Shown piece after piece: positions 134 through 13,856 of a DNA stretch of 14,199 bases. A program made the position numbers and the translations under genes. The number at the start of each line of letters is the position of its first letter. The first letter of the stretch is position 1. The notes below the pieces were generated by a model. The model searched no databases and had not been told where the DNA came from. It saw nothing but the letters and a program-made list of their open reading frames with translations. Origin of the DNA: an uncultured Ruminiclostridium sp. (lineage in GTDB: Bacteria > Bacillota > Clostridia > Oscillospirales > Ruminococcaceae); NCBI GenBank assembly GCA_934462775.1, contig CAKSIR010000054.1, forward strand, positions 1 through 14,199, in the 5' to 3' direction.

Positions 134-1288
134 CTATTTCCACAATCCGCGGTAAATCTCCTTAACATCGTCCACCGTTACCGCCTTAACCGTATTTGCA
201 GGGCTGCCGCTTGCAACTGCGTCGGCTGCCATTTTGTCAAGAACGGCAAAGAACTTTTCCCTCGGTATTCCGTATTCCTCAAGGGTAGGAATTTCGCACA
301 GCCTGCAAAGCTCGCCGATTGCCTTTATAAGCAGTTCGGCGGCGGATTTGTCATCATCGCTGTTATCTGCGGCGCCTATCGCCCTTGCTAAGTCCGCAAA
401 GCGCTCATAAGCGCCGTCAAGGGCAAAGCTAAGACACTTTTCGAGCAGCATTGCGTTGGAAATTCCGTGTGCAACGTGGAAGTTGGCGCCGATAGGTCTG
501 CTCATTCCGTGAACAAGAGTTACGGACGCATTGTTGATGGCAACGCCTGCCTCAAATGCAGCAACGGACATTTCCTCCCTTGCCTTGAGATTTTCACCGT
601 CCTTGTATGCGATTGGCAGGTACTTGAAAATGCGCTTTACCGCCGAAATTGCAACGGTATCCGTAAGCGGCTGCGCCTTTCTGCTTGTATAGCTTTCAAT
701 CGCGTGGGTCAGTGCGTCAAGACCTGTTGCGGCTGTAATCCCCTTTGGCGAAGAAACAGTGTAGGCAGGGTCTATAATCGCAAGGTCTGGAATAAGCGGC
801 GCGCCGTTCAGCAGCATTTTAATATCGGTAGCGGTATCGGTTATTACTGTAAAACGGGTTGCCTCCGAACCGGTTCCCGCCGTTGTGGGAACCGCAGCCA
901 TAAACGGCAGACTTCCCTCAATAAGCCTGCCCATATAGTCGGCTATTCTGCCGCCCTTTGCTGCAAGAACTGCTACCGCTTTCATTGTATCAAGCGCGCT
1001 GCCGCCGCCTATTGCCGCTAAGCAGTCGCAGCCGTTTTCCTTATACACATCAAGAGCCGCGTTTACCGTTTTGTCAGTCGGCTCGCCGTGGATTTCGGTA
1101 AAGCAGGCGGTTTTTATTCCGGCTGACTCAAGAGCGGTTTTTAATTCCTCAAAGCACTTTGATTTCGATGTTACCGTACCCGAAATTATCAGCGCCCTTG
1201 TTCCCATTTCGGCGAAATACTTCTTTGCGCCCTCGATGGCGTTTTCACCCATAACCGTGCGGCGCGGCATTAAAAATTCTCTGCTCAT
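134..1288 (-). CDS. Iron-containing alcohol dehydrogenase, probable malonate semialdehyde reductase
   Basis: A 384-residue group III (iron-dependent) alcohol dehydrogenase of normal length. Seen: the nucleotide-binding GGGS motif at residues 94-97, PTTAGTGSE at 134-142, and the expected metal ligands D191, H195, H260 and H274, in the spacing of the FucO-like family. The start ATG at 1288 has an AGAGG ribosome site upstream. It is the last gene of the pyrimidine operon, 83 bp after the N-carbamoyl-beta-alanine amidohydrolase, with a hairpin in the gap. In that context the best guess is NAD(P)H-dependent reduction of malonate semialdehyde, made by the aminotransferase, to 3-hydroxypropionate. 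This substrate is inferred from position; the family also reduces many other aldehydes. Family call is firm, substrate is moderate. Confidence 0.85.
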   Translation of the reverse strand: MSREFLMPRRTVMGENAIEGAKKYFAEMGTRALIISGTVTSKSKCFEELKTALESAGIKTACFTEIHGEPTDKTVNAALDVYKENGCDCLAAIGGGSALDTMKAVAVLAAKGGRIADYMGRLIEGSLPFMAAVPTTAGTGSEATRFTVITDTATDIKMLLNGAPLIPDLAIIDPAYTVSSPKGITAATGLDALTHAIESYTSRKAQPLTDTVAISAVKRIFKYLPIAYKDGENLKAREEMSVAAFEAGVAINNASVTLVHGMSRPIGANFHVAHGISNAMLLEKCLSFALDGAYERFADLARAIGAADNSDDDKSAAELLIKAIGELCRLCEIPTLEEYGIPREKFFAVLDKMAADAVASGSPANTVKAVTVDDVKEIYRGLWK

Positions 1289-1371: not shown

Positions 1372-2640
1372 TCATTCGCTGTCAGCCTTGAGAACTGCGT
1401 TAAGCATTACGCTTGCACCCTCCGTGCAGTGTTCGACGCTTGAAAATTCAGGCTCGCAGTGTGAAAGACCGTCCTTGCTCTGTACGAAAATCATTGTTGC
1501 AGGCAGCATATATGCGGCAAACTGCGCGTCATGACCTGCGCCTGAGTGAATGTACTGGTGCTTTACTCCAAGCTCCTCGCAGGCGCTCTTTACATATCCT
1601 ACCAGCTTTTTATCCCAGTAAACCGTATCTCTGTTCCATGCCTTTACAACCTCGCAGGTGCAGCCGCTCCATGACTTTTCGGCGCAGCTCTTTACAATTT
1701 CAAGCACCTTCGCAAGCACCTCGGGGTTTTCGTGACGTGCGTCAAAGGAGAAATCGAAGAAATCAGGCACGCAGGTGTGTACGCATGGGTGGCAGACAAC
1801 CTCGCCGGTTGTATAAACAAGGTCGTTGTAGCCAAGCTTGTCAATTTCCTCATGGAGATAGCAGAGAGCCTGAGAAGCGGCATAGAATGCGTCGCGGCGC
1901 TTCGGCATCGGGAATGTTCCCGCATGGGTTGTCTGACCGTAGAATCTCAGACGGTAGTTGAACATACCGAGAACGCAGTCAACAACGCCTATATCGTTGC
2001 CGTTATCCTCAAGGATAGGGCCCTGCTCAATATGAGTTTCAAAATAGTATTCATAATTATCGGGAGAGAGTCTGAACTTTTTGTCGCCCTTGAAGCCGGA
2101 CTTGTCAAGCGCCTCGCCAAAGGTCTTTGTGCTGTCCAGAATTGACTGCGACTTCATCATATCCTCGTACTTGAACTTGCAGCGAATATCCTCGGGCAGA
2201 TAATCATAGCACACAATTCCCGAGCACATCATTGCAGGCGGATAGAGAGAGCCTTCCTCGTTGGTCCATATCATTGCCGTCAGCGGGTGCTTGTGTGGGA
2301 TTTTCTTTTCCGCAACCGTTTCAAGCACTTCCATAGCGGACATTACGCCTAAAATACCGTCGTAGTTGCCGCCGTTCTTTACCGAATCGCAGTGGGACGC
2401 CATAACAATACGCTTTGCGTTCGGGTCTGAGCCGGGAAGCGTTGCATACATATTGGCAACATCATCGACCTCGATAACCGCGCCGATTGCTTCCATGCGC
2501 TTTTTAAATTCATTTCGCGCCATTATCGCCTCAGGGGACAGGGAGTATCTGGTAATTCCTCCGTGTCCTGCGTCGCCGAATTTTGAAAAGGTCTTGATTT
2601 TATCTTCCATTCTTTCCTTGCTGCAAGTAAACATAGTCAT
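1372..2640 (-). CDS. pydC: N-carbamoyl-beta-alanine amidohydrolase (beta-ureidopropionase), M20 family
   Basis: A 422-residue zinc amidohydrolase of the M20 hydantoinase/carbamoylase type (family includes beta-ureidopropionase, allantoate amidohydrolase and L-carbamoylases). Visible metal-ligand motifs: SHCDS (H83), NYDG (D94), NEEG (E128/E129), ETHIEQGP (H203) and SHCEPE (H394); also GQTTHAGTFPM (H239) in the lid/dimerisation region and SGAGHDAQ at 366-373, which contributes to the substrate site. Expected reaction: N-carbamoyl-beta-alanine to beta-alanine, CO2 and ammonia, the third step of reductive uracil breakdown. The neighbouring dihydropyrimidinase and PreA favour this over allantoate or hydantoin metabolism. 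The start at 2640 has GGAG seven bases upstream; a second ATG two codons later is also possible. It follows the 137-residue protein gene by 15 bp. Confidence 0.88.
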   Translation of the reverse strand: MTMFTCSKERMEDKIKTFSKFGDAGHGGITRYSLSPEAIMARNEFKKRMEAIGAVIEVDDVANMYATLPGSDPNAKRIVMASHCDSVKNGGNYDGILGVMSAMEVLETVAEKKIPHKHPLTAMIWTNEEGSLYPPAMMCSGIVCYDYLPEDIRCKFKYEDMMKSQSILDSTKTFGEALDKSGFKGDKKFRLSPDNYEYYFETHIEQGPILEDNGNDIGVVDCVLGMFNYRLRFYGQTTHAGTFPMPKRRDAFYAASQALCYLHEEIDKLGYNDLVYTTGEVVCHPCVHTCVPDFFDFSFDARHENPEVLAKVLEIVKSCAEKSWSGCTCEVVKAWNRDTVYWDKKLVGYVKSACEELGVKHQYIHSGAGHDAQFAAYMLPATMIFVQSKDGLSHCEPEFSSVEHCTEGASVMLNAVLKADSE

Positions 2641-2655: not shown

Positions 2656-3069
2656 TTATATTGTTTTTTTCGTCAGCATCTGCGCAGGGACTCTTTTGCA
2701 GTCCTCAAGCATGGTCCTGACCTCTTCTGTGGAAACGAAATAGGGAATTTCGCAGGTTTCCTCTTCGCCCTCGAAAAGCAGCTGGAACTTGTCGTCCCAA
2801 TCGGTAATGGTTATCCTTGCAACCTTTGGAAAACCGTTAAGCTTTTCCTGTATCTGCTTTTTACCCCTTACATAACCGTAAATGATTCCGTCCCACTCCA
2901 CATTATAGCTGAGTGTTTCAGCAAAGGGCCGCTTCATGTGAATTTCAACGGGGATTTCGGATATGCCGCCCTCCATGTGTCTGTATTCCGGCAGAATCAT
3001 TCTGAATTTGTCTGCGGAAATATAGTCGGAAAGGGTTACGCTTTCCGCATTTTTGTATGAATTAGCCAT
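2656..3069 (-). CDS. Unrecognised 137-residue operon protein
   Basis: I do not recognise this protein. It is soluble-looking, with no signal peptide, membrane segment or cysteine cluster (only C106 and C124). The middle (about 55-112) alternates in a way that suggests beta strands, including VEWDGIIYGYVRG and ARITITDWDDKFQLLFEG; the end (about 114-125) looks helical. It is a real gene on context: start ATG at 3069 with GGAG nine bases upstream, 22 bp after the aminotransferase stop, and only 15 bp before the amidohydrolase start. Tight packing between two pathway enzymes suggests a role in the same process, such as a regulator, chaperone or small accessory subunit, but the sequence gives no proof. 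Confidence 0.75.
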   Translation of the reverse strand: MANSYKNAESVTLSDYISADKFRMILPEYRHMEGGISEIPVEIHMKRPFAETLSYNVEWDGIIYGYVRGKKQIQEKLNGFPKVARITITDWDDKFQLLFEGEEETCEIPYFVSTEEVRTMLEDCKRVPAQMLTKKTI

Positions 3070-3091: not shown

Positions 3092-4414
3092 TCAGATTGT
3101 TTTGTCAACCTCGCTGAGGACCTCGTCCACCTTTACCATTTCCTCTTTTATCTGCTCCTCTGTGATAATAAGCGGAGGAGATACGAAAATCATATTTTCA
3201 TGAGAGTAGGTCATAAAGCCCTTTGCTTTCAGCGCGCCGATTATTTTTCCCATTACGCCGTCGGGATCCTTTCCGTAAGGAACAAGAGCTTCCTTTGTTT
3301 TCTTGTCCTTTACAAGCTCAATTGAGGAGAAAAGACCGATGTATCTTACATCGCCTACGCAAGGGTGCTTTTCCTTAAGCTGCTCAAGAATTTCGCCAAG
3401 CACCTTTCCAACCTTGTTTACGTTGTCAAGAATGTTTGCTTCCTTGTAGTAGTTTACGCAGGCAACGCCTGCTGCGCAAGCAAGAGGGTGAGCGCTGTAT
3501 GTAAGTCCGCAGGAAAGAAGATGGTCGTCAAAATAGGCTGCGATTTCCTTGCTGACAACTACGCCGCCAAGCTGAACGTATCCGCAGGTAACGCCCTTTG
3601 CGAAGCTGACAATATCGGGCTTCACTCCAAAGTTTTCAAATGCGAACATTTTGCCTGTTCTGCCCCAGCCTGCCATTACCTCGTCGCATATCATCATAAT
3701 TCCGAACTCGTCGCAGATTTTGCGCACGCCCTGCAAATATCCCTCGGGCGGAATGATTACGCCGTTTGAACCTGTGATTGTTTCCATTACGATTGCGGCT
3801 ACGCTGTCAGGACCCTCGTAAATCACCTGCTCGCGGAGCTTTGCAACATAATAATCGGCAGCCGCCTTTTCGCTCTCGAAGGTAATCGGCTCACGATAAA
3901 CGTATGGGTCAAAGAAGTGTACAAATCCCGGAATGCCTGGCTCAAGAGGATAACGTCTTGGCTCGCCTGTAAGATTTCCCGCGCCGAACGTTGAACCGTG
4001 ATAGCTTCTGTAACGGGAGAACACCTTGTTTCTTCCGGTGAACATTCTGGCGATTTTGATTGCGTTCTCGTTGGCGTCAGCGCCGCCGTTGGTGAAGAAA
4101 ACCTTTCCCATATTGTCAGGCATAAGGTCGATAATCATTTTTGCAAGCTTTGCTCTTGGTTCGCTGCCGTAGCTGGGAGAAACGTAGCAGTATTTCTCCG
4201 CCTGCTCCTTAATTGCTTCAATAATAGGACGGCAGTTGTGACCAACGTTAAGGTTTACCAGCTGACTGGACATATCGGAATAGCGGTTTCCGTCAAAATC
4301 CCACATATATATACCGTCAGCTTTTTCGATTGGAATAGGGTTGATTCCCCTCTGCTTTGACCAAGACTGCAAATTATATCTGCATTGCATCTCTTTAATT
4401 TCCTGACCGTTCAT
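3092..4414 (-). CDS. pydD: Class III aminotransferase, probable beta-alanine:2-oxoglutarate (or pyruvate) aminotransferase
   Basis: A 440-residue PLP-dependent class III (omega-amino acid) aminotransferase of full length. Seen: the cofactor phosphate loop region TNGGADANENA at 108-118, SYHG at 137-140 for ring stacking, ICDEVMAGWGRTGK at 242-255 with D244 for the pyridine nitrogen, and the Schiff-base lysine K273 in SFAKGVTCGY. Within this operon it should move the amino group of beta-alanine to an oxo acid, giving malonate semialdehyde and releasing the second pyrimidine nitrogen as glutamate or alanine. An extended pathway of this kind (PydD then PydE) is known in Gram-positive bacteria. 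The AGGA site is 11 bases from the chosen ATG, which is rather long; a nearer ATG at 4424 is out of frame. The gene follows the regulator by 50 bp. Confidence 0.87.
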   Translation of the reverse strand: MNGQEIKEMQCRYNLQSWSKQRGINPIPIEKADGIYMWDFDGNRYSDMSSQLVNLNVGHNCRPIIEAIKEQAEKYCYVSPSYGSEPRAKLAKMIIDLMPDNMGKVFFTNGGADANENAIKIARMFTGRNKVFSRYRSYHGSTFGAGNLTGEPRRYPLEPGIPGFVHFFDPYVYREPITFESEKAAADYYVAKLREQVIYEGPDSVAAIVMETITGSNGVIIPPEGYLQGVRKICDEFGIMMICDEVMAGWGRTGKMFAFENFGVKPDIVSFAKGVTCGYVQLGGVVVSKEIAAYFDDHLLSCGLTYSAHPLACAAGVACVNYYKEANILDNVNKVGKVLGEILEQLKEKHPCVGDVRYIGLFSSIELVKDKKTKEALVPYGKDPDGVMGKIIGALKAKGFMTYSHENMIFVSPPLIITEEQIKEEMVKVDEVLSEVDKTI

Positions 4415-4448: not shown

Positions 4449-4468
4449 ATGATATATTGCTGTATCAT
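4449..4468. promoter_or_regulatory. Palindrome between regulator and aminotransferase genes
   Basis: A perfect 6-bp inverted repeat with an 8-bp centre (ATGATA-N8-TATCAT) overlaps the stop codon of the PucR-family gene and lies before the aminotransferase. It could be an operator for the regulator or a small RNA hairpin. The surrounding sequence is AT-rich, so chance is possible. Confidence 0.3.
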
Positions 4469-5616
4469 TTTCTGCTTAGAATTTCCTTTGCTCTCAAAGC
4501 AAGGAGAATGTTCATTTTCTGCTCATCGTTCATTTCAACGTTCATAATGTCGCGGATTATCTTCATTTTGTAATTAACGGTGTTGCGGTGTATTCCAAGC
4601 TTCTCCGCTGTAAGCTGTACGCTGCTGTTTGATTCGAGATAAACTCTGAGCGTCTGCTCGTAATCGGTTTCGTTCATGGAATCGTACCTCTCAACGTCAC
4701 CTAAAACGCCGTCAGCGTAGCTCCTCAGTATGGCTCGGTTTTCAACGCCCAGCAGCAGCTTATAAACGCCGATATTACGGTAGAGCATTGTCTGTCTTTT
4801 GTTTATCCTTGCGGCTTCAAGAGCGGATATTGCCTCGTTGTAGCAAGTTGGCACTCCTCCGTAGCCCTCGCCCTGCTCCGATACGCCTATATTCAGCTCA
4901 AAGTCGCATTCCGGCTCCGAAAGCTCTTTTATAAGCCTTTGCATTTCATCGTGAGAAGGATTCTGCCTTACTGTAATGAGCTTGTCGTCCTGGATGAACA
5001 TTGCAACTGCGCTGCGCGAGCGTTTCAGCAGCCGCCACAAACCGTACTTGCTGTTTTTGAGCAGCTGCGCAAGAGAAATGCCGTTATCCTCCACCGACAA
5101 GGCAAGTATCGTATAGGAAGCTGTTTCGGAAAAGCCTGCTTTCTGAAGCGCAGGCGCGTATTCCTCGCGCTTGTCGGGACTGAATATCAGACTGCGGAAC
5201 GCCTCGGCAATGCTTGTTTCCGCCTCCTCGTTGTCGATTATCCTGCGGCAGAAATTGTACGTTATGTCGATGATATGGACCTGCCACGGAAGCGTAAACA
5301 GCGGGAAGTCGTTCTCCTCACAGTAGACGATCACCTTTGATGAAACCGCGTCAATGTGCGGTCCCAGATTAACCACAAGACCTACTGCGTTATGCTCCTT
5401 AAGGCGCTTTACAAAAGGCATAAGCCATTCGCAGCCCACATGACCGATTCCGGTTGTAAAAACAAGCTCGTTTCCGTGGAGAAAGTCAGGAACCTCGCTG
5501 TCCTCCACCATGTGAACCCAGCGGACGGTATTGTCCATTCCGCCTTTTCCTGCAATAAGCTTCATATTGTAGTTCTTCTCCGCATTCTTGCAAAGCTGAG
5601 TAAGTGTAATGGCCAA
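4465..5616 (-). CDS. PucR-family transcriptional regulator
   Basis: A 383-residue regulator with the PucR layout: an N-terminal PucR sensor domain (about 8-125, with the typical VRWVHMVEDSEVPDFLHGNE stretch), a middle region, and a C-terminal helix-turn-helix (about 325-380, LTAEKLGIHRNTVNYKMKII). Family members such as Bacillus PucR control purine or amino-acid catabolism in response to a small metabolite. Here it sits inside the pyrimidine operon, so it probably senses a pyrimidine or pathway intermediate and controls the operon, including itself; the ligand is inferred. The start is TTG at 5616: AGGAGG lies eight bases upstream and no ATG is well placed. It begins 16 bp after the PreA gene ends. 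Confidence 0.88.
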   Translation of the reverse strand: MAITLTQLCKNAEKNYNMKLIAGKGGMDNTVRWVHMVEDSEVPDFLHGNELVFTTGIGHVGCEWLMPFVKRLKEHNAVGLVVNLGPHIDAVSSKVIVYCEENDFPLFTLPWQVHIIDITYNFCRRIIDNEEAETSIAEAFRSLIFSPDKREEYAPALQKAGFSETASYTILALSVEDNGISLAQLLKNSKYGLWRLLKRSRSAVAMFIQDDKLITVRQNPSHDEMQRLIKELSEPECDFELNIGVSEQGEGYGGVPTCYNEAISALEAARINKRQTMLYRNIGVYKLLLGVENRAILRSYADGVLGDVERYDSMNETDYEQTLRVYLESNSSVQLTAEKLGIHRNTVNYKMKIIRDIMNVEMNDEQKMNILLALRAKEILSRK

Positions 5617-5632: not shown

Positions 5633-7084
5633 TTAATCAGGTCTGGTTATTCGTTTTGAAAGTCCGATTGCATTTACGGGACAGACAAGGCGGCAAAGGT
5701 GACAGCCTACGCATTTTGCTCCGTTCAGAACAGGCTTTCTGTCCTCGCCGAAGCTTATTGCCTGATGTCCGCCGTCATAGCAGGAAACGTAACACCTGCC
5801 GCATCCGACGCATTTTTCTCTGTTGAACTTCGGAAAAACCTCTGTCTTTCTGTCAAGCTCATCGGCAGGAACAAGCTTTTTCAGCTCGGTTCCAACCAGC
5901 TCTGAAACGCTTGCTATTCCGTTATCCTTCATGTAGTGGGAAAGTCCCGAAATAAGATTGTCGATTACGCGGTAGCCGTATTCCATAACCGACGTTGTGA
6001 CCTGCACATTTGTGCAGCCGAGAGAAAGGAAATCCAGCGCGTCGCGCCATGTTTCAATTCCGCCCATTCCGCTGATTGGAACGCCTTTAAGCCCGGGACA
6101 GCCTGCCATATCGTATATGAAACGCAGCGCAATGGGCTTTACCGCCTTTCCGCTGTAACCCGAAACCGCCGTTCTGCCGCTTACCTCGGCGGAGCGGGAG
6201 GTGGTTATGCTTTTAATGGTGTTGATTGCCGCCAGACCGTCCGCGCCGCCCTCAACCGCCGCCATTGCGGGGATTTCCATGTGGGAAATATTCGGCGTCA
6301 TTTTTGCAAGCACCGGAAGCCTTGTTCCCTTTTTGGCAAGGGCGGTAAACCGCTCAACCAGGGCGGAGTCCTGACCTACGTCGCTGCCCATTCCTTTCGC
6401 GCTCATGTGCGGGCAGGAAAAGTTGCACTCGATAATGTCAGCGCCCGCTTCCTCCGAAAGCCGCGCAAGCTCGGTCCATTCCTCGTCGGTCTGCCCCATT
6501 ATCGAGGAAACAAGAACCTTGTTTGGGTAATTCTTTTTTAGCTTGCGGTATATATCCAAGTTTTCTTCAAGGGTGTGATCGCTTATCTGCTCCATGTTTC
6601 TGAATCCCACAAAGGGCGTTCCCTCTTTGGCAACAGCGTCAAACCTGGGCGAAACCTCCTTTGGCTTGTAAAATCCAATGGTCTTGTAGACCGCTCCCGC
6701 CCAGCCTTTGTCAAACGCCTTTGCAATCATTTCGTAATCGCTGGCTACTACCGAGGAACTGAGGAAAAACGGGTTTTCGCAATGAACGCCGCAAAAATCA
6801 ATTGACAGGTCAACCTCAGCTTTTTCCGTGGGAACAAGCTGCGCGGCGATTTCCTTTATGCGTATCGGAAAATCGTAGTGAATGCAGCTGTTTTCACAGG
6901 GAGCGGAGCAGTCGGCGCAGGCGCTTCCTATAAACTCCCCTGCTCCCGCGGAATTATCAAACCTTACCGCCAGCAATGCAGCGCTTGGATTGTATCCCTT
7001 GGGGCAGGCGCTCGTACAGGGAGCCTGCTTGCAAAGCAGACATCGCGCCGCCTCTTGATATATGTTCATGTTCTTGTATGCCAT
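5633..7084 (-). CDS. preA: Dihydropyrimidine dehydrogenase, PreA type with fused PreT-like iron-sulfur domain
   Basis: A 483-residue protein in three parts. Residues 1-90 resemble the N-terminal iron-sulfur domain of PreT and of mammalian dihydropyrimidine dehydrogenase, with eight cysteines (C15, C18, C23, C27; C56, C59, C63, C67). Residues about 92-400 are the FMN barrel of PreA: ECNFSCPH with the expected catalytic C224, MTPN (N265), INT (N288, T289), SGYSGKAVKPIALR and ISGMGGIETW. Residues 425-468 hold two [4Fe-4S] motifs (C425, C428, C431, C435; C458, C461, C464, C468). It should reduce uracil or thymine to the dihydro form. E. coli PreA starts at the equivalent of residue 92 and relies on PreT for NADH oxidation; no PreT FAD/NAD domain is present here. 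A GAGG ribosome site overlaps the stop codon of the dihydropyrimidinase gene 9 bp upstream, suggesting coupled translation. Confidence 0.92.
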   Translation of the reverse strand: MAYKNMNIYQEAARCLLCKQAPCTSACPKGYNPSAALLAVRFDNSAGAGEFIGSACADCSAPCENSCIHYDFPIRIKEIAAQLVPTEKAEVDLSIDFCGVHCENPFFLSSSVVASDYEMIAKAFDKGWAGAVYKTIGFYKPKEVSPRFDAVAKEGTPFVGFRNMEQISDHTLEENLDIYRKLKKNYPNKVLVSSIMGQTDEEWTELARLSEEAGADIIECNFSCPHMSAKGMGSDVGQDSALVERFTALAKKGTRLPVLAKMTPNISHMEIPAMAAVEGGADGLAAINTIKSITTSRSAEVSGRTAVSGYSGKAVKPIALRFIYDMAGCPGLKGVPISGMGGIETWRDALDFLSLGCTNVQVTTSVMEYGYRVIDNLISGLSHYMKDNGIASVSELVGTELKKLVPADELDRKTEVFPKFNREKCVGCGRCYVSCYDGGHQAISFGEDRKPVLNGAKCVGCHLCRLVCPVNAIGLSKRITRPD

Positions 7085-7093
7085 AGCCTAACC

Positions 7094-8458
7094 TCATTTG
7101 CTTTCATGCTTGGCGCATTTTACAAATTTGCCCCAGCCTCGTTCGCCCTTAAATTCTCCGTTGTCGTAAACCAATCTGCCTCTGGAATAGGTCTTTACCG
7201 GATAGCCGTGTACCTTCACTCCCTCCCAGATTGTGTGGTCGCAGTCGGAATGCATATTCGACTGACTGATTGTGAAATCCTTATTCGGGTCGTAAATAAC
7301 GATGTCTGCGTCCTTGCCTATTGCAATTTCGCCCTTATCTGTGCAGCCAAAAATTCTTGCAGGATTTGTACTGCACATCGCAACCGCCTTTTCAAACGGA
7401 ATTACTCCCTCGTTTGCCTTGCCCAGCATATACGGATACATATTCTCAATGCCTGCGCAGCCGTTCGGAATCTTGCGGAAGTCGTTCAGTCCCCAGTCCT
7501 TTTCGCTTTGCTGGAACGGGCAGTGGTCGGTAGCGATAGTGTCAATATCTCCGCGCTTGATTGCCGCCCAGAGCGAATCCTGCGCTTCCTTGTTCTTGAT
7601 CGGAGGCGAGCAGACAAAGTTTCTGCCGTCATGGCGCTTATAAACATCGCTTGTGAAGTTAAGATACTGCGGGCAGGTTTCAGCGTAAATCTCGTAGCCA
7701 TCGTCCTTTGCCTTTGTTACTGCGTCAACGCCCTGCTTGTTGGCAAGATGAACTATGTACAGCGCAGCTCCGGACGCTTTCGCAAGGGATATTGCCCGTT
7801 CATCAGCTTCTCCCTCAACAAATTCGGGACGGCTCATGTAGTGATACCAAGCGTCTGTTTTGCCCTCGCTGATGTACTTCTCGGTAAGAGTATTCACAAG
7901 CTCGTTGTTTTCTGCATGAACAGCGATCAGCGCGCCGTAATCCTTTGATTTGCAGAGAAGCTGATAGAAAACGCCGTCCTTTACGCCGAAATCGTAAACC
8001 ATAAACACCTTATAGGACGTAATTCCAAGCTCGCAGGCGTCGCCGATTGTATCGATAAGATCGCCGCCGATGTCCTTTACACCGATGTGAAAAGAGTAGT
8101 CAACCGCTGCGTCAGGCTCGGCAAGCGCGTTTCTGCGCTTGAAGGTATCGACCATGGATTCACCGAAATCCTGGAGCGCAAAGTCGAAAACTGTTGTTGT
8201 TCCTCCGCAGGCAGCCGCTCTTGTTCCTGCGAAATAATCGTCAGATGAAATCGTTCCCCCAAAAGGCATTGCAAGATGTGTGTGTGCGTCAATTGCTCCC
8301 GGAAGAACCAACATTCCGCTTGCGTCAACCACGTTTTCACATTCCATGTCCGACAAATCAGCGCCAAGAGCCGCAATTTTTCCGTCCTTTACAGCAACGT
8401 CAGCTTTGAACATTTCCGCAGCCGTTACAATCGTACCGTTTTTAATTAGCAAATCCAT
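7094..8458 (-). CDS. hydA: Dihydropyrimidinase
   Basis: A cyclic amidohydrolase of about 454 residues that opens dihydrouracil or dihydrothymine to the N-carbamoyl-beta-amino acid. Numbering from an upstream in-frame ATG at 8464, the binuclear metal site is complete: H61 and H63 in DAHTHL, the lysine to be carboxylated K152 in SYKVFMVYDFG, H183 in VHAEN, H239 in IVHL, and D313 in ATDHCPF. Y157 and the PNG at 333-335 match substrate-binding positions of the D-hydantoinase/dihydropyrimidinase family. I chose ATG 8458 because AGGAGG is eight bases upstream, whereas ATG 8464 would be only two bases from it. It is the first catabolic gene after the transporter, separated by 145 bp containing two hairpins. 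PreA and the carbamoyl amidohydrolase next door favour pyrimidine over hydantoin as substrate. Confidence 0.93.
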   Translation of the reverse strand: MDLLIKNGTIVTAAEMFKADVAVKDGKIAALGADLSDMECENVVDASGMLVLPGAIDAHTHLAMPFGGTISSDDYFAGTRAAACGGTTTVFDFALQDFGESMVDTFKRRNALAEPDAAVDYSFHIGVKDIGGDLIDTIGDACELGITSYKVFMVYDFGVKDGVFYQLLCKSKDYGALIAVHAENNELVNTLTEKYISEGKTDAWYHYMSRPEFVEGEADERAISLAKASGAALYIVHLANKQGVDAVTKAKDDGYEIYAETCPQYLNFTSDVYKRHDGRNFVCSPPIKNKEAQDSLWAAIKRGDIDTIATDHCPFQQSEKDWGLNDFRKIPNGCAGIENMYPYMLGKANEGVIPFEKAVAMCSTNPARIFGCTDKGEIAIGKDADIVIYDPNKDFTISQSNMHSDCDHTIWEGVKVHGYPVKTYSRGRLVYDNGEFKGERGWGKFVKCAKHESK

Positions 8459-8496
8459 AATCATTACCTCCTGTAAATTACTGTGAATGTATATTC

Positions 8497-8533
8497 ATCG
8501 GAAAGTCATCATCGCTGATGACAACTTTCCGAT
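8497..8533 (-). other. Strong hairpin before dihydropyrimidinase
   Basis: Nine base pairs (8497-8505 with 8525-8533), a 3-nt bulge on one side, then six base pairs (8506-8511 with 8516-8521) around a 4-nt loop. It lies in the leader of the dihydropyrimidinase gene, about 25 bp before its ribosome site. No T-run follows on the minus strand. It may be an mRNA end-protecting or processing structure separating transporter and enzyme messages. Confidence 0.5.
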
Positions 8534-8537
8534 AAAC

Positions 8538-8559
8538 CCGGAGGACTGCTGCCCTCCGG
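8538..8559 (-). other. Hairpin after substrate-binding protein gene
   Basis: A 7-bp GC-rich stem (8538-8544 with 8553-8559, CCGGAGG with CCTCCGG) and 8-nt loop, about 45 bp past the stop of the binding-protein gene. Only a short T-stretch (GTTTATC) follows on the minus strand, so at best it is a partial terminator. Such structures often keep binding-protein mRNA levels higher than those of downstream genes. Confidence 0.45.
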
Positions 8560-8603
8560 CTATCGTCGGGGAAAAGAAGTATCACAAATGAATAGAAGCT
8601 GTC

Positions 8604-9791
8604 TTATTTCTTGAACATATCGTTCTTGTAAACAAGTACCAGACCTGAACGCTGATAAACCTGAGCAACCTCGAGAAGCTCCATGCCGCCTGCGTTAGCG
8701 TTGATAAGGTTTGAAACCCATGTTACGCCGAAATCAACCGTACCGTTGTAAACCGCTGTTGTTTCGGAGATGTCGCCGCCGCCGCTTACGATTGTAACGT
8801 CAAGACCAACCTCGTCATAGTAGCCCTTTGCCTTTGCAACATAATAGCCCATGAACTGAGCCTGCGGCAGCCACTTAAGCTGAACGGAAACCGCTGTCTT
8901 TTCGGGAGCGCCGTCTGTTTCGGGGTCGTATGCAAGATATGCTGTGCTTCTGATGTCGTCAAGCGTCATTGTTGACAGTTTATCCTTTGCGGCTGCGTCC
9001 TCAAGAAGAATGTACTTCTTTGCAAGGTCGAGCGTCTGCTGCATTGCGCTTTCGTCCATATTGCCTACTGTTTCGGCTGAAACAGTGTTGCCGTTCATAT
9101 CGGTTGTTACCAGCTTTGCAACCTCGGAGGCCATATATGCCTGGTGGTCGGCTGAAACGGAGGAGCCTGCCTGGAATACAATTTCAGCTGCTTCCTCAGG
9201 GTTTGCACAAGCATAAGCCCAGCCCTTCATAGAAGCTGTTACAAAAGCCTTTACCGTGTTAGGGTTTGCTTCTGCGAACGCCTTTGAGCAGAACAGGTTA
9301 TCCTCTAACATTGCTACGCCCTCGTCGTTCATATCAATTACGCTGACTGTATCGCCGTAGCCGTAACCGCCGTCATAGCTGTTCTTTACAAGGCCAAGCT
9401 CGTTATAGGTCATTGCGGACGCAAGAGTTACAGCGTCGCTGTCGAACTGGTCCATTGTGAAGTCCTGTGTAATGTAGTCGGTTGGCAGACAGTACTTTGT
9501 TAGAAGCGCCTGAATTTCGTACTCGTTGCCAAGTCCCCAGTTGCCTACCTTGCTGTCTGCCGACGCCGCTTTGATGATTTCCTCCGAGGACATCATGCCT
9601 GTGCTTTCCTCAGCTTCCGTATCGGCTGCCGATGTGTCTGCCGCCGTTTCTGCTGTGCCGGCAGGAGCGGCTGTTGTTGTTGCCGCTGCGGTTGTGTCAG
9701 CAGGAGTTGAGCTGCCGCAGGCTGTAAGCTGTGCGCATACAAGAGCTGCCGCCATAATTGCGAGAAGTGATTTCTTTCTTGTCTGTTTCAT
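8604..9791 (-). CDS. Circularly permuted NMT1/THI5-like substrate-binding lipoprotein
   Basis: A 395-residue ABC substrate-binding lipoprotein, presumably for a pyrimidine-like compound. Residues 1-25 are a lipoprotein signal (KKS, hydrophobic stretch, LTAC lipobox, lipidated C25); 26-68 are a Thr/Ala/Glu linker. The rest is in an unexpected order. Residues about 69-287 match the part that normally comes second in this family (KVGNWGLGNEYE, SAMTYNE, VIDMNDEGVAMLED, WAYACANPEEAAEIV, ending LTLDDIRSTAYL-like). After a short linker (288-299), residues 300-395 match the usual start of the mature protein (VSVQLKWLPQAQFMGYYVAK, KGYYDEVGLDVTIV, DFGVTW, VAQVYQRSGLVLV). The protein ends where the family normally crosses to the second lobe. 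The frame is open throughout. ATG 9791 has AGGTAGGT upstream. It follows permease 2 by 44 bp. Family call is firm; ligand is inferred. Confidence 0.88.
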   Translation of the reverse strand: MKQTRKKSLLAIMAAALVCAQLTACGSSTPADTTAAATTTAAPAGTAETAADTSAADTEAEESTGMMSSEEIIKAASADSKVGNWGLGNEYEIQALLTKYCLPTDYITQDFTMDQFDSDAVTLASAMTYNELGLVKNSYDGGYGYGDTVSVIDMNDEGVAMLEDNLFCSKAFAEANPNTVKAFVTASMKGWAYACANPEEAAEIVFQAGSSVSADHQAYMASEVAKLVTTDMNGNTVSAETVGNMDESAMQQTLDLAKKYILLEDAAAKDKLSTMTLDDIRSTAYLAYDPETDGAPEKTAVSVQLKWLPQAQFMGYYVAKAKGYYDEVGLDVTIVSGGGDISETTAVYNGTVDFGVTWVSNLINANAGGMELLEVAQVYQRSGLVLVYKNDMFKK

Positions 9792-9835: not shown

Positions 9836-10639
9836 CTACCGTGTTTTTCTGCGCTTTAAAACAAGCTTTTCAACTATCATCAGTATGACGTACATTATTA
9901 TTCCTATGGCACAGGCAACCGCTATGTAAGCCCATGCCGTCGGGTACTGACCCTTGATGATGTTTTCCCTTATCTGCCTGCCGACTCCCACCGTTTCCTC
10001 TGCAAAATATTCAGTTACAAGTGCGCCGATAACGCTTGCGGGAACGCTGACTCTGAGCGCGGTGAATATGTAAGGAATACTGTTGGGAAGCCTGAGCTTA
10101 GTAAATACAGTTATCTTTTTTGCGGCGTAGGATTTCATTAAATCCTCGGAAAAGGGCTTTAACTCGGTAAGTCCTCTGAATGCGTTTACGCTCATTGCCG
10201 CCGTGCAGGAAATTGTTACCACCAGTATCTTTGCAACCGTACTTCTGACGCTTACATCGCTGCTTAAATCTCTTGTCCAGTTGTTGATAACCGGAGCAAG
10301 CGCTACCAGCGGAATCGCGTTAAAAGCTGAAACTATCGTAAGTCCTCCGGCGCCCCATTTGGAAAATACCGTTGCCACTACTGCAATGCCGTAACCGAGT
10401 ATTGAGCCGAAAATCAGTCCGCCCAGCGCAACTGTAACCGTGATTTTCACATGACCCATAATTACATCGGAATTGGAAGAAATTATCTCGCCGATTCGCG
10501 TAGGCAGCGGAAGTGTGATCGTGTCCGTGCCTATCCATGAATGGAGTACCTCCGTCTGCCAGAGAATTACAATGACAGCTCCGAACAGAAGCGGAAGCAC
10601 AGCGCTTGAAATGCCGTTAAGCAGCCGTTTTGTTTTCAT
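9836..10639 (-). CDS. ABC transporter permease (second of pair)
   Basis: A 267-residue inner-membrane permease of the BPD_transp_1 fold used by nitrate/taurine/NMT1-type importers. Hydrophobic segments are visible at about 12-28, 66-92, 100-118, 136-153, 194-210 and 236-258. The cytoplasmic EAA-type coupling loop is at about 170-191 (YAAKKITVFTKLRLPNSIPY), the site that contacts the ATPase. It starts 13 bp after the first permease stops and has GGAGG upstream of ATG 10639. It likely pairs with the first permease as a heterodimer. Confidence 0.92.
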   Translation of the reverse strand: MKTKRLLNGISSAVLPLLFGAVIVILWQTEVLHSWIGTDTITLPLPTRIGEIISSNSDVIMGHVKITVTVALGGLIFGSILGYGIAVVATVFSKWGAGGLTIVSAFNAIPLVALAPVINNWTRDLSSDVSVRSTVAKILVVTISCTAAMSVNAFRGLTELKPFSEDLMKSYAAKKITVFTKLRLPNSIPYIFTALRVSVPASVIGALVTEYFAEETVGVGRQIRENIIKGQYPTAWAYIAVACAIGIIMYVILMIVEKLVLKRRKTR

Positions 10640-10652
10640 TTTTCCACCTCCG

Positions 10653-11471
10653 TCAATCCTGTGGTTTTCTGCGCTTGTACGGGCAGAGAAGCTTTTCGAT
10701 AACTCCCATTACCCAGTAGCTCAGAATACCGATTATCGCGCTTATAAGAACTATGTCCCAGAAAACAAGTCTTGTCATGCCGCCTTTTAAGGACTGTGAA
10801 AGCATACAGCCAAGTCCGTTTCCTCCCTGAAGGGTGTCAACCAGAATTGACGCCGTTATCGCCATTGGAGCCGATATTTTCAGTCCCGTAAAGAAGTACG
10901 GGATACAGGCGGGAATGAGCGTTTTTGTGTAAAGCTGGAACTTGTTTGCCGCGTATGAATACATCAGCTCATGCTTTTCCTTTTCAACTGCCTTGAAGCC
11001 TGCAAGGACGTTTGTTGAAACAGGATAAAACGTAAGTATTGCGGCTATTACAATTCGCGATGTGTTTATATCTCCTGTGATCGCCAATATAATCGGCGCC
11101 ATGCCCAAAATCGGTATCATCTGAATAAGCATCAAATAAGGGAACGCGATTTTTTCAACTATTCCCGAAAGGTTCATCAGCAGCGCCAGTATGTATCCTA
11201 CCACCGTTCCTATCAGAAAGCCGATTCCCGCACGAAGCAGCGTTTCCTGACAGCTCTGACCGATAAGCTCGGACATTGTAAGCTGACCGCTGACCTTGTT
11301 GTCTGAGAAAAAAGACCCTGCAATCTGCCACACATGGGGCAGAACGTTTATAGGTGTTCGCTTGGTTGCCTCAACTATAAAAGCGAATATTTCCCACACA
11401 ACGATTATTCCTATTACCCAGACCACCGTTACCATCTGTTTAGAGGTAAGAATCTGTTTAAGTTTTCTCAT
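10653..11471 (-). CDS. ABC transporter permease (first of pair)
   Basis: A 272-residue membrane protein of the same permease family as its downstream neighbour. Hydrophobic segments lie at about 13-33, 80-100, 108-130, 138-156, 195-212 and 236-256. The EAA-type loop is at about 171-193 (YSYAANKFQLYTKTLIPACI), for docking to the ATPase. The start ATG 11471 has GGGAGG five bases upstream, and the gene begins 12 bp after the ATPase ends, so the transporter genes are co-transcribed. The two permeases are clearly related but diverged, pointing to a heterodimeric channel. Confidence 0.92.
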   Translation of the reverse strand: MRKLKQILTSKQMVTVVWVIGIIVVWEIFAFIVEATKRTPINVLPHVWQIAGSFFSDNKVSGQLTMSELIGQSCQETLLRAGIGFLIGTVVGYILALLMNLSGIVEKIAFPYLMLIQMIPILGMAPIILAITGDINTSRIVIAAILTFYPVSTNVLAGFKAVEKEKHELMYSYAANKFQLYTKTLIPACIPYFFTGLKISAPMAITASILVDTLQGGNGLGCMLSQSLKGGMTRLVFWDIVLISAIIGILSYWVMGVIEKLLCPYKRRKPQD

Positions 11472-11483
11472 AGCCGCCTCCCG

Positions 11484-12257
11484 TCAGACTCCCTCAAAGC
11501 TGCCGCGGACCTTTGCAACAAGCTCCGTAAATTCCGCTGTATTCCTCATATCCATTGTCCTCGGACGGGGCAGGTTAATATCGACTACCGCCGAAAGTCT
11601 GCCCGGATGCGGAGAAAGCACGCACACCCTATCCGAAAGGAATACTGATTCCTGAATGTTATGGGTTACAAAAATAATGGTTTTATTGGTTTTGCGCCAG
11701 ATTTTCAGCAGATCCATGTGGAGCTTTTCACGAGTAAATTCGTCCAATGCAGAAAACGGTTCGTCCATAAGCAGTATCTCAGGCTGAAGCGCCAGCGCTC
11801 TCGCAATTCCCACTCTCTGCTGCATACCGCCCGAAAGCTGATTAGGATAGTGGTTTGCGAAATCCGTAAGCCCTACCAGTTCGAGCATTTTATCCGCCCT
11901 TTCCAGACGCTCTGCCTTTGGAATGTGCATTATTTCAAGAGGAAGCATCACATTCTTTTTAACGGTTCTCCAATCGTAAAGCACCGCGCTTTGGAATACA
12001 ATTCCGTAGCGCTGTTTAAGCCGCGCCTGTCTTGGAGTTTCGCCGCCAACGGTGATCTTTCCCTGCGTAGGCTGAAGCAAATCTGCCATGATTCTCAGCA
12101 GTGTGGTCTTGCCGCAGCCTGACGGACCGAGCAGCGAAATAAATTCGCCCTTCTGAATGTCAAGTGAAACGCTTGTAAGCGCTGTAACATCTTTTCCGTC
12201 GGTTGTTTTGTAGGTCATGCCGATGTTATCAAGCATGATTTCTGTCTGAGTTCCCAT
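11484..12257 (-). CDS. ABC transporter ATP-binding protein
   Basis: A 257-residue ATPase of the nitrate/sulfonate/taurine (SsuB/TauB-like) class that energises the importer. Numbered from an upstream ATG at 12266: Walker A GPSGCGKTT at 47-55, Q-loop Q92, signature LSGGMQQR at 144-151, Walker B ILLMDEP at 164-170, D-loop SALD, and switch histidine H202. There is no C-terminal regulatory domain. Three in-frame ATGs occur close together (12266, 12263, 12257); I chose 12257 because AAAGG directly touches the first one and is about nine bases from the third. It is the first gene of the operon, and its leader carries a promoter and a terminator-like hairpin. Confidence 0.93.
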   Translation of the reverse strand: MGTQTEIMLDNIGMTYKTTDGKDVTALTSVSLDIQKGEFISLLGPSGCGKTTLLRIMADLLQPTQGKITVGGETPRQARLKQRYGIVFQSAVLYDWRTVKKNVMLPLEIMHIPKAERLERADKMLELVGLTDFANHYPNQLSGGMQQRVGIARALALQPEILLMDEPFSALDEFTREKLHMDLLKIWRKTNKTIIFVTHNIQESVFLSDRVCVLSPHPGRLSAVVDINLPRPRTMDMRNTAEFTELVAKVRGSFEGV

Positions 12258-12284
12258 AGCCATCATCCTTTCAAAGCCTGAAAT

Positions 12285-12692: not shown

Positions 12693-13856
12693 TTAAAGCG
12701 AAGCTTCAAGAATTTCCAGTATATCGTTTTCCGTAAGAGGAGCCCAAGCGTTTTCAAGTCCCTCATTGACCGCAATATGGTTTGCCATTTCCGCAAGCCT
12801 TGAATTGTCAATTCCAACATCGCGCAGGCGCATTGGTATTCCGAAATCCTCAAACAGCTTGTAAGTGCAGGCGATTGTTTTATCGGCAATTTCCACTTCA
12901 GATAAGGTTGGGTCAATGCCGAAAATATGAGTGCCGAAGCTTACAAAACGTTCTATTGTCTTTTCGTTCAAAATGTGCTTCATCCATCTTGGAGTGATTA
13001 TTGCCAGCCCCTCGCCGTGGGTAATGTCGTAATAGCCGCTGAGAGCGTGTTCAATTCCGTGACACGGCCAGCCTGACGGACTGTTTCCAATCGAGAAAAT
13101 TCCGTTGCAGGCAAGAGAACAGTCAACCATGAACTCTCCCCTTGCGTTGTAGTTATCAGGCTCTGCCAATGCGATTTTTGCATTTTTTATAAGGCTTTTT
13201 ATTGCCGACTCGCTCATTCCGTCCGTCAAATCCGAATGTGATTCGCAGAAGTAGCCCTCAATAATGTGATTGATAGCGTCGGCAGCGCCTGCGGCAGTCT
13301 GCTTTTTTGAAACGGAGAATGTATATCTCGGATCAAGAATTGAAGCAACCGGGAAAAGATGTTTGTCAACATATCCGACCTTGTCGTTGGTTTCTGTTCT
13401 TGAAATAACGCAGCCGCAGTCGTATTCGGATCCTGTTGCAGCAAGAGTAAGCACGTCAACCATAGGCAAAGCCTTTTCGGTCTTAACCTTAAAGGTGATA
13501 AGATCCCACGTTTCGCCGTCATAGAGCGCTCCTGCGCAAATTGCCTTTGAACAGTCAAGCACGCTTCCGCCGCCTACTGCCAGTACAACATCTACGCCTT
13601 TTTCCTTGCAGATTTTTACGCCGTCAACAACGCTTGTCGAGTATTTGGGATTAGGCTCAATTCCGCCAAGCTCGTATACCTCAAAATCAGCAAGCAGCGA
13701 TTTAACCTTGTCGTAAAGTCCGATTTTCTTAATACTTCCGCCGCCGTATGTGAGAAGTACCCTCTTGCCTATCGGCTTTAAAACGTTTGGCAGACTTTCA
13801 ATTGAATCCTTGCCGAAAATCAGCTTTGTCGGGGTGCAGTATGTGAAATTTTCCAT
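12693..13856 (-). CDS. Iron-containing alcohol dehydrogenase, butanol dehydrogenase/YqhD-like
   Basis: A 387-residue iron-type alcohol dehydrogenase of the BdhA/YqhD branch, full length. Seen: the family opening FTYCTPTKLIFGK, VGGGSVLDCSKA at 94-105, TLAATGSEYD at 137-146, and metal ligands D193, H197 (ADAINHIIEGYF), H266 and H280 (CHGIEHALSGYYDITHGEG), the last two 14 residues apart as in YqhD. It probably reduces aldehydes with NAD(P)H. It differs clearly from the alcohol dehydrogenase at the operon end. It has its own promoter and terminator, so any link to pyrimidine breakdown is by proximity only. The start at 13856 has GGAGA four bases upstream. Confidence 0.92.
   Translation of the reverse strand: MENFTYCTPTKLIFGKDSIESLPNVLKPIGKRVLLTYGGGSIKKIGLYDKVKSLLADFEVYELGGIEPNPKYSTSVVDGVKICKEKGVDVVLAVGGGSVLDCSKAICAGALYDGETWDLITFKVKTEKALPMVDVLTLAATGSEYDCGCVISRTETNDKVGYVDKHLFPVASILDPRYTFSVSKKQTAAGAADAINHIIEGYFCESHSDLTDGMSESAIKSLIKNAKIALAEPDNYNARGEFMVDCSLACNGIFSIGNSPSGWPCHGIEHALSGYYDITHGEGLAIITPRWMKHILNEKTIERFVSFGTHIFGIDPTLSEVEIADKTIACTYKLFEDFGIPMRLRDVGIDNSRLAEMANHIAVNEGLENAWAPLTENDILEILEASL

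Follow-up and report, generated by a model that had tools for sequence, protein, structure and literature searches.

The 14,199-nucleotide stretch of DNA analysed here (the window), from an uncultured Ruminiclostridium sp., raises the question whether the two modules of an NMT1/THI5-like substrate-binding protein can stand in exchanged order, and by which route such an order could have arisen. According to the translated sequence the minus-strand ORF at 8604..9791 encodes a lipoprotein of 395 aa, and the initial annotation had described it as a circular permutation with swapped pieces and the signal peptide still in front. Translation confirmed the ORF, lipobox and linker as given there, and the proposed junction positions (about 9587 and 8892-8933) proved about right by profile alignment. 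The signal peptide and lipobox (QLTAC) occupy residues 1-25 (9717..9791), with Cys25 presumed to be lipid-modified, and are followed by an Ala/Thr-rich linker that leads from the lipid anchor to the domain (residues 26-66, 9594..9716) and appeared as no-confidence coil in a first structure model. Profile, 4nmy alignment and structure model place the C-module (VGNWGLGNEYE ... LDDIRSTAYL), which comes second in unpermuted relatives, at residues 67-287 (8931..9593). Residues 288-299 (8895..8930) form a fused junction, where alignments with canonical C-ends and linkers suggest an old C-terminus joined to an old pre-domain linker. The N-module (VSVQLKWLPQAQF ... QRSGLVLVYKND), first in unpermuted relatives, lies at residues 300-395 (8604..8894) as judged from profile, Pfam NMT1 and model; VSVQLKWLPQAQFMGYYVAK ... 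QRSGLVLVYKND marks the same module.

The Pfam NMT1 profile (PF09084) matched the window protein with 102.8 bits (cut-off 20.5) in two stretches, the better of which aligns residues 311-391 to positions 2-82 of 216, so that the start of the profile falls at the end of the protein. The NMT1 matches came in swapped order without a single co-linear one, as the initial annotation had anticipated. Likewise, residues 300-367 align to positions 7-73 of the chain of PDB 4nmy and residues 82-213 to positions 113-243, and in a 305-position profile of unpermuted relatives, trained on 57 of 58 loci with the truncated L029 left out, residues 79-260 correspond to 105-283 and residues 300-391 to 3-94. This swapped pattern was found in all 22 permuted loci and in 173/173 distinct database proteins among the matches listed, the window's own included (best 120 of 4172 and best 120 of 6486 from two protein searches, pooled), and each of the 58 unpermuted loci, 57 of which had trained the profile, gave one co-linear match. 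As a control, the unpermuted Clostridium relative L027 was co-linear with both 4nmy (6-258) and Pfam NMT1. We also compared local alignment scores against doubled and single unpermuted references (15 of the 58). The doubling ratio had means of 1.68-1.79 in 23/23 permuted proteins, compared with a mean of 1.001 and a maximum of 1.011 in controls (105 unpermuted and 253 permuted pairs). Both parts are homologous to one reference, their order is exchanged and doubling brings a gain, and the profile, 4nmy and doubling tests together uphold the claim of a permutation behind a retained signal peptide. It is virtually certain that the domain of the window protein is a circular permutation of the NMT1/THI5-like fold. 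By score the protein belongs to PF09084, and it departs from the usual N-to-C order of the profile; since the Pfam cut-off ignores order, it is a variant inside this family.

A search of genome contigs, which the initial annotation had suggested, yielded 138 stretches that encode a relative, and among the best 80 of these the swapped order recurred in 22 loci, the other 58 having the N-module first; the 173 listed proteins tell the same story. Identity to the window modules is 64-92% (C) and 77-99% (N) in permuted loci and at most 48% (C) and 59% (N) in unpermuted ones, with no overlap, and the permuted protein is highly conserved. Among the carriers are two strains of Ruminococcus bromii (L012, L015), Oscillospiraceae and other Clostridia, two assemblies from Spirochaetota and one from Acholeplasmatales, the last with two copies (L021 and L022). 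Whole-genome samples were searched at E ≤ 1e-20. In the order of R. bromii 11 of 394 genomes matched, 7 permuted and 4 unpermuted by the order of matched pieces. In its class 10 of 391 matched: 6 are permuted over full length, and one of these six, G747, has an unpermuted copy as well; G572 is cut by a contig end and three are unpermuted only. Genome G001 enters both counts. Of seven genomes from around the Spirochaetota locus L017 three gave a match, two of them with full-length permuted genes and the third at the end of a contig; of 150 genomes around the Acholeplasmatales locus only the starting genome matched. As the other 149 sampled genomes of that order gave no match at E ≤ 1e-20, the presence of L021 and L022 in this assembly suggests transfer or mis-binning.

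Many of these relatives come from metagenome assemblies, where two fragments could have been joined in the wrong order by assembly or binning. Against such an artefact, the same order is found in sequences diverged to 64-99% identity per module, in 22 loci including the two R. bromii strains, and in the interior of two long contigs (2.69 Mb in G115, 3.53 Mb in G635). Chance and assembly error are excluded by this recurrence in many independent contigs, long ones among them; we give a misjoined assembly a negligible probability and regard the order as inherited. Ribosome-binding sites were seen by eye ahead of most of the 32 permuted-gene starts. A few matches are irregular: the permuted-protein match at G166:C24:17031-18014 contains one TAA stop, and that in G776 also spans a stop codon (at L096 the reading frame closes together with the final residues). 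The database protein P0124 joins the start of the operon ATPase to a permuted binding domain and is probably an assembly chimera or a deletion. The lipobox pattern is present in 29 of 32 permuted proteins. The three exceptions belong to two Spirochaetota loci, L017 and L019, and to L096, whose genome falls in the order of L017. Permuted order is therefore independent of lipid tethering; the three proteins of this group without lipobox look soluble and periplasmic.

In trees of re-joined binding proteins the permuted forms make up one clade, in one case with 23 of 81 rows (support 100/99) and in a second with 30 of 53 rows (support 100/100). Unpermuted Clostridia lie nearest to this clade and the Alphaproteobacteria, the chosen outgroup, lie outside, so that the permuted order looks derived; the tree tool warned of long branches meeting between permuted and alphaproteobacterial rows. 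C-module and N-module trees calculated apart show the same split between permuted and unpermuted forms (quick trees, 94 and 93). A joined tree of TM1, TM2 and ATPase, the permease and ATPase genes of the same operons, whose alignment owes nothing to the permutation, places 25 permuted operons in one clade (45 rows, support 100/100). The permuted order is conserved and, in these trees of the proteins sampled, of single origin. That the permutation arose several times independently in the NMT1/THI5-like family might be read from the enzyme genes of the permuted operons, which do not form one clade, and from quick trees that need 2 order changes for TM1 alone (the odd row being L013, whose stretch is cut) and 3 for the ATPase alone. 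We consider this highly improbable, as the binding-protein, separate-module, TM2 and joined permease/ATPase trees each give one permuted clade and the junction motifs are common to the permuted proteins.

All genes of the operon lie on the minus strand. Upstream of the binding protein are an ABC ATPase of the SaoA/TauB kind (11484..12266; NCBIfam NF040729, 228.9 bits, below the cut-off of 360) and the permease subunits TM1 (10653..11471; NCBIfam matches below cut-off) and TM2 (9836..10639; a weak NCBIfam match below cut-off). Downstream follow a dihydropyrimidinase, HydA (7094..8464; TIGR02033, 480.2 bits, cut-off 393.25), a PreA-like dihydropyrimidine dehydrogenase subunit (5633..7084; NF006183, 551.5 bits, cut-off 335), a PucR-type regulator (4465..5616; PF07905 and PF13556 above cut-off), an aminotransferase that is a candidate beta-alanine aminotransferase, its specificity being inferred (3092..4414; NF004718, 558 bits, cut-off 472), and a hydantoinase/carbamoylase family amidase as candidate beta-ureidopropionase (1372..2640; TIGR01879, 334.4 bits, cut-off 204; NF006771, 435.7 bits, cut-off 399). 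An iron-containing alcohol dehydrogenase is found at 134..1288 (family matches below equivalog cut-offs) and a second one at 12693-13856, which precedes the ATPase gene in the same orientation. A 137-aa protein at 2656-3069 has no Pfam or NCBIfam match; homologues with 27-59% identity occur in 10 of the 22 permuted loci. The intergenic region between the binding-protein gene and hydA contains two strong hairpins (8493..8559, minus strand; RNA fold of 8480-8603, -49.2 kcal/mol, z -6.5), and inverted repeats were noticed by eye past the stop codon of several permuted genes. Such repeats commonly accompany binding-protein genes whose expression exceeds that of the remaining operon.

In 22/22 permuted loci the first gene detected upstream of the binding protein codes for a TM2 homologue, and a HydA homologue with 62-84% identity is present in 18 of them; of the remaining four, L001 and L017 have no detected HydA homologue, L002 has a fragment and L019 one of 42%. 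In L002, TM1 and ATPase follow the binding protein and are encoded on the opposite strand, through either a local inversion or a scaffold error. Reductive pyrimidine breakdown leads from uracil via dihydrouracil and N-carbamoyl-beta-alanine to beta-alanine and on, and we take the gene cluster of the window, by known pathways, to serve this route. PreA, dihydropyrimidinase and carbamoylase all exceed curated cut-offs. No PreT family appeared among the matches listed for the ten window proteins scanned, and at its N-terminus the PreA-like protein matches Fer4_20 weakly (23.8 bits, below the cut-off of 25.8). The neighbouring operon genes make a pyrimidine-type ligand reasonably likely, that is, a pyrimidine base or an early reductive product (uracil, thymine, a dihydropyrimidine or a hydantoin-like ring).

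The unpermuted relatives from Clostridium and other Clostridia (L023-L027, L081, L082, L084, L093) are 53-59% identical to the window protein in the N-module and 44-49% in the C-module. They share with it the lipobox and the permeases and ATPase upstream (in L025 the ATPase lies beyond the stretch examined), and differ in having the usual module order and one co-linear profile match. Searching with the window proteins by tblastn, we found the ten-gene order PucR-AT-ADH-ATPase-TM1-TM2-SBP-HydA-PreA-HyuC both in permuted loci (L020, L087, L092, L098, L099) and in unpermuted Clostridium loci (L023, L024, L026, L027), and because of this common order both forms of the binding protein seem to do the same job. 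In a tree of HydA and PreA the enzymes of Clostridium branch within the set from permuted operons, beside L020, L087, L092 and L098, and the AU test rejects a topology that unites all permuted operons (p 0.0001, 24 vs 7 rows). Median identities, calculated for nine permuted and four Clostridium loci, are higher within the permuted group than to Clostridium for the C-module of the binding protein (70 vs 48%) and TM1 (63 vs 47%), and about equal for HydA (65 vs 65%), PreA (59 vs 60%) and ATPase (68 vs 65%). Leaving out L019 with its distant HydA homologue does not change the picture (HydA 66/66, PreA 60/60). As the HydA and PreA tree conflicts with the transporter tree, transporter and enzyme genes were exchanged as separate blocks within an otherwise fixed gene order.

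Two main models for the origin of permutations, duplication and fission-fusion, are set out in a review (PMC3320104), and the fused junction bears on the choice between them. In L011, L017, L019 and L020 it retains an apparent old C-terminus (YWEAA.../YIEAA...): the canonical ends ...TSKYWEEATK (L027) and ...DTSYWEAATK (L028) resemble the internal sequence ...DASYWEAAEASDG... of the permuted L017, and a further likeness is seen in ...DSTYWDAAMADG... (L020) and ...DNQYIEAATSSEDG... (L011). Moreover, EK stands shortly ahead of the QLKW block in 32/32 permuted proteins, as in the canonical pre-domain linker ...DGELEKVTLQLKWLP. Retention of the old C-end and the old linker fits an end-to-end fusion, hence tandem duplication and trimming, which we consider the probable route as far as sequences can tell. 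The ancestral gene would have been duplicated in tandem, the first copy would have lost its N-module behind the signal peptide and the second its C-module, and the old ends would have been fused. The initial annotation had favoured this route; the composition of the junction speaks for it, but we found no remnant of the duplication in the 600-base flanks of permuted genes at E ≤ 1 and saw no partly duplicated intermediate among the loci examined. Alternatively, two separately encoded parts may have resulted from a fission and been re-fused, without tandem duplication. The cut lies at the lobe crossover or close to it (profile 94 to 105); by fold inference this leaves each part near a structural unit and would suit such a history, but none of the loci examined has separate parts (L089 is cut by a contig end), and a junction of old C-end and old linker is what full-length copies fused end to end would give. 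Fission and re-fusion is accordingly the unlikely option of the two.

How would the permuted protein work? A first model, from 16 near-identical permuted rows, reached a pLDDT of 41 only. Structure prediction, which the initial annotation had also proposed, then gave a confident AlphaFold2 model of the permuted domain (pLDDT 95.5, pTM 0.92). Its alignment had 82 rows, 60 of them pieces cut from unpermuted relatives, and most of the C-pieces ended in a stretch of about 20 misplaced residues. In VIA-align 4nmy and Thi5 match the model over residues 1-224 only (residues 1-223 align to 4nmy 98-301), and OpuAC over residues 6-329 with an rmsd of 4.6 Å. OpuAC was also the best full-length match in Foldseek, though a weak one (TM 0.41/0.49, rmsd 12.9 Å). 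The model shows the two alpha/beta lobes of a type II substrate-binding protein, and retention of the bilobed fold is predicted with high confidence. By the known type II fold the old N- and C-ends should lie on one lobe, and the closing of the hinge may be affected. Lobe II would be one continuous stretch that comes first, and lobe I one continuous stretch that comes second. The lobes would be covalently joined only once, and the other crossover strand (RSGLVLVYK) would be a free C-terminus that completes the hinge non-covalently; the last strand corresponds to model residues 319-324, i.e. residues 384-389 of the protein. Counted from the beginning of RSG, the C-terminus follows after 10-16 residues in 30 of 32 permuted proteins, after 19 in L018 and after 21 in L002. 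As it comes right after the strand that continues into the second lobe in unpermuted relatives, the hinge would keep its strands with a single covalent link. The lipid anchor would be shifted from lobe I to lobe II.

Most likely ligand binding between the lobes, closure and hand-over to the transporter are all retained in the permuted protein; the transporter would be formed by TM1, TM2 and the ATPase encoded just upstream. The lipobox and the neighbouring permease and ATPase genes are those of an ABC-importer binding lipoprotein, and on these sequence grounds the protein is very likely a functional importer component. The PucR regulator in the operon could point to a protein that no longer serves import and acts as a sensor or scavenging lipoprotein, yet the permease and ATPase genes are the immediate upstream neighbours of the binding-protein gene and have a phylogeny in common with it, and we regard such a change of role as highly improbable. 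As a whole, the locus is in all likelihood explained by the substrate-binding lipoprotein of an ABC importer with a genuine, inherited permutation of the NMT1/THI5-like fold.

Permuted and normal forms with 44-59% identity per module exist in the same kind of operon, partly with the same gene order, and in named strains, namely of Ruminococcus bromii (permuted) and Clostridium beijerinckii (unpermuted). The two orders of one protein can be compared for folding, hinge motion, tethering and transport, which makes them a natural test of tolerated rewiring, and the pair allows a search for missing intermediates. For annotation the case is a warning, as profile tools give two partial matches for one whole protein.

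By sequence Thi5, 4nmy and 3ix1 are the nearest solved structures, and all of them are unpermuted. The initial annotation knew of no natural permutation in this family; this holds for NMT1/THI5 as far as the open-licence literature goes, where we found no report, but natural permutation is described for other binding proteins (PMC2395249, PMC4990184). Like the window protein, TpMglB-2 (Tp0684) of Treponema pallidum is a binding lipoprotein with a natural permutation and has relatives among Gram-positives of the gut; its authors showed that it binds D-glucose and changes shape, and proposed a 'Type Ic' (PMC4990184). It differs from the window protein in its type I fold and glucose ligand. The permutation there concerns only the order of strands in the N-lobe and brings in a fourth crossover, and the alignment of the permuted part to the normal order is poor (13%; PMC4990184). 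We rejected membership of the window protein in 'Type Ic', as no type I profile was found at E ≤ 1 in the Pfam scan. OpuAC is among the betaine-binding proteins reported as circular permutants in the CPSARST paper (PMC2395249). Assignment of the window protein to the OpuAC family by sequence was also rejected, the Pfam scan at E ≤ 1 giving only NMT1, NMT1_2 and New_glue; OpuAC of Bacillus subtilis has 12-13% identity to it and belongs to another sequence family, the likeness being one of topology only. Permutation at the first lobe crossover may be a repeated route in type II proteins, by which the NMT1-like clade would have reached an OpuAC-like strand order independently; continuous lobes and a free hinge strand, or else the tether moved to the other lobe, might tune the opening and closing of the flytrap, and the permease pair and the permuted receptor could then have diverged together, forming one exchangeable cassette in a fixed pyrimidine operon. 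In view of the weak Foldseek superposition on OpuAC we hold this as a speculative and rather doubtful extension. Natural permutants have often been found by structure comparison after sequence likeness was lost; in PMC2395249 the betaine-binding permutation was inferred between structures with less than 24% identity, whereas the modules of the window protein still share 44-59% with their unpermuted relatives.
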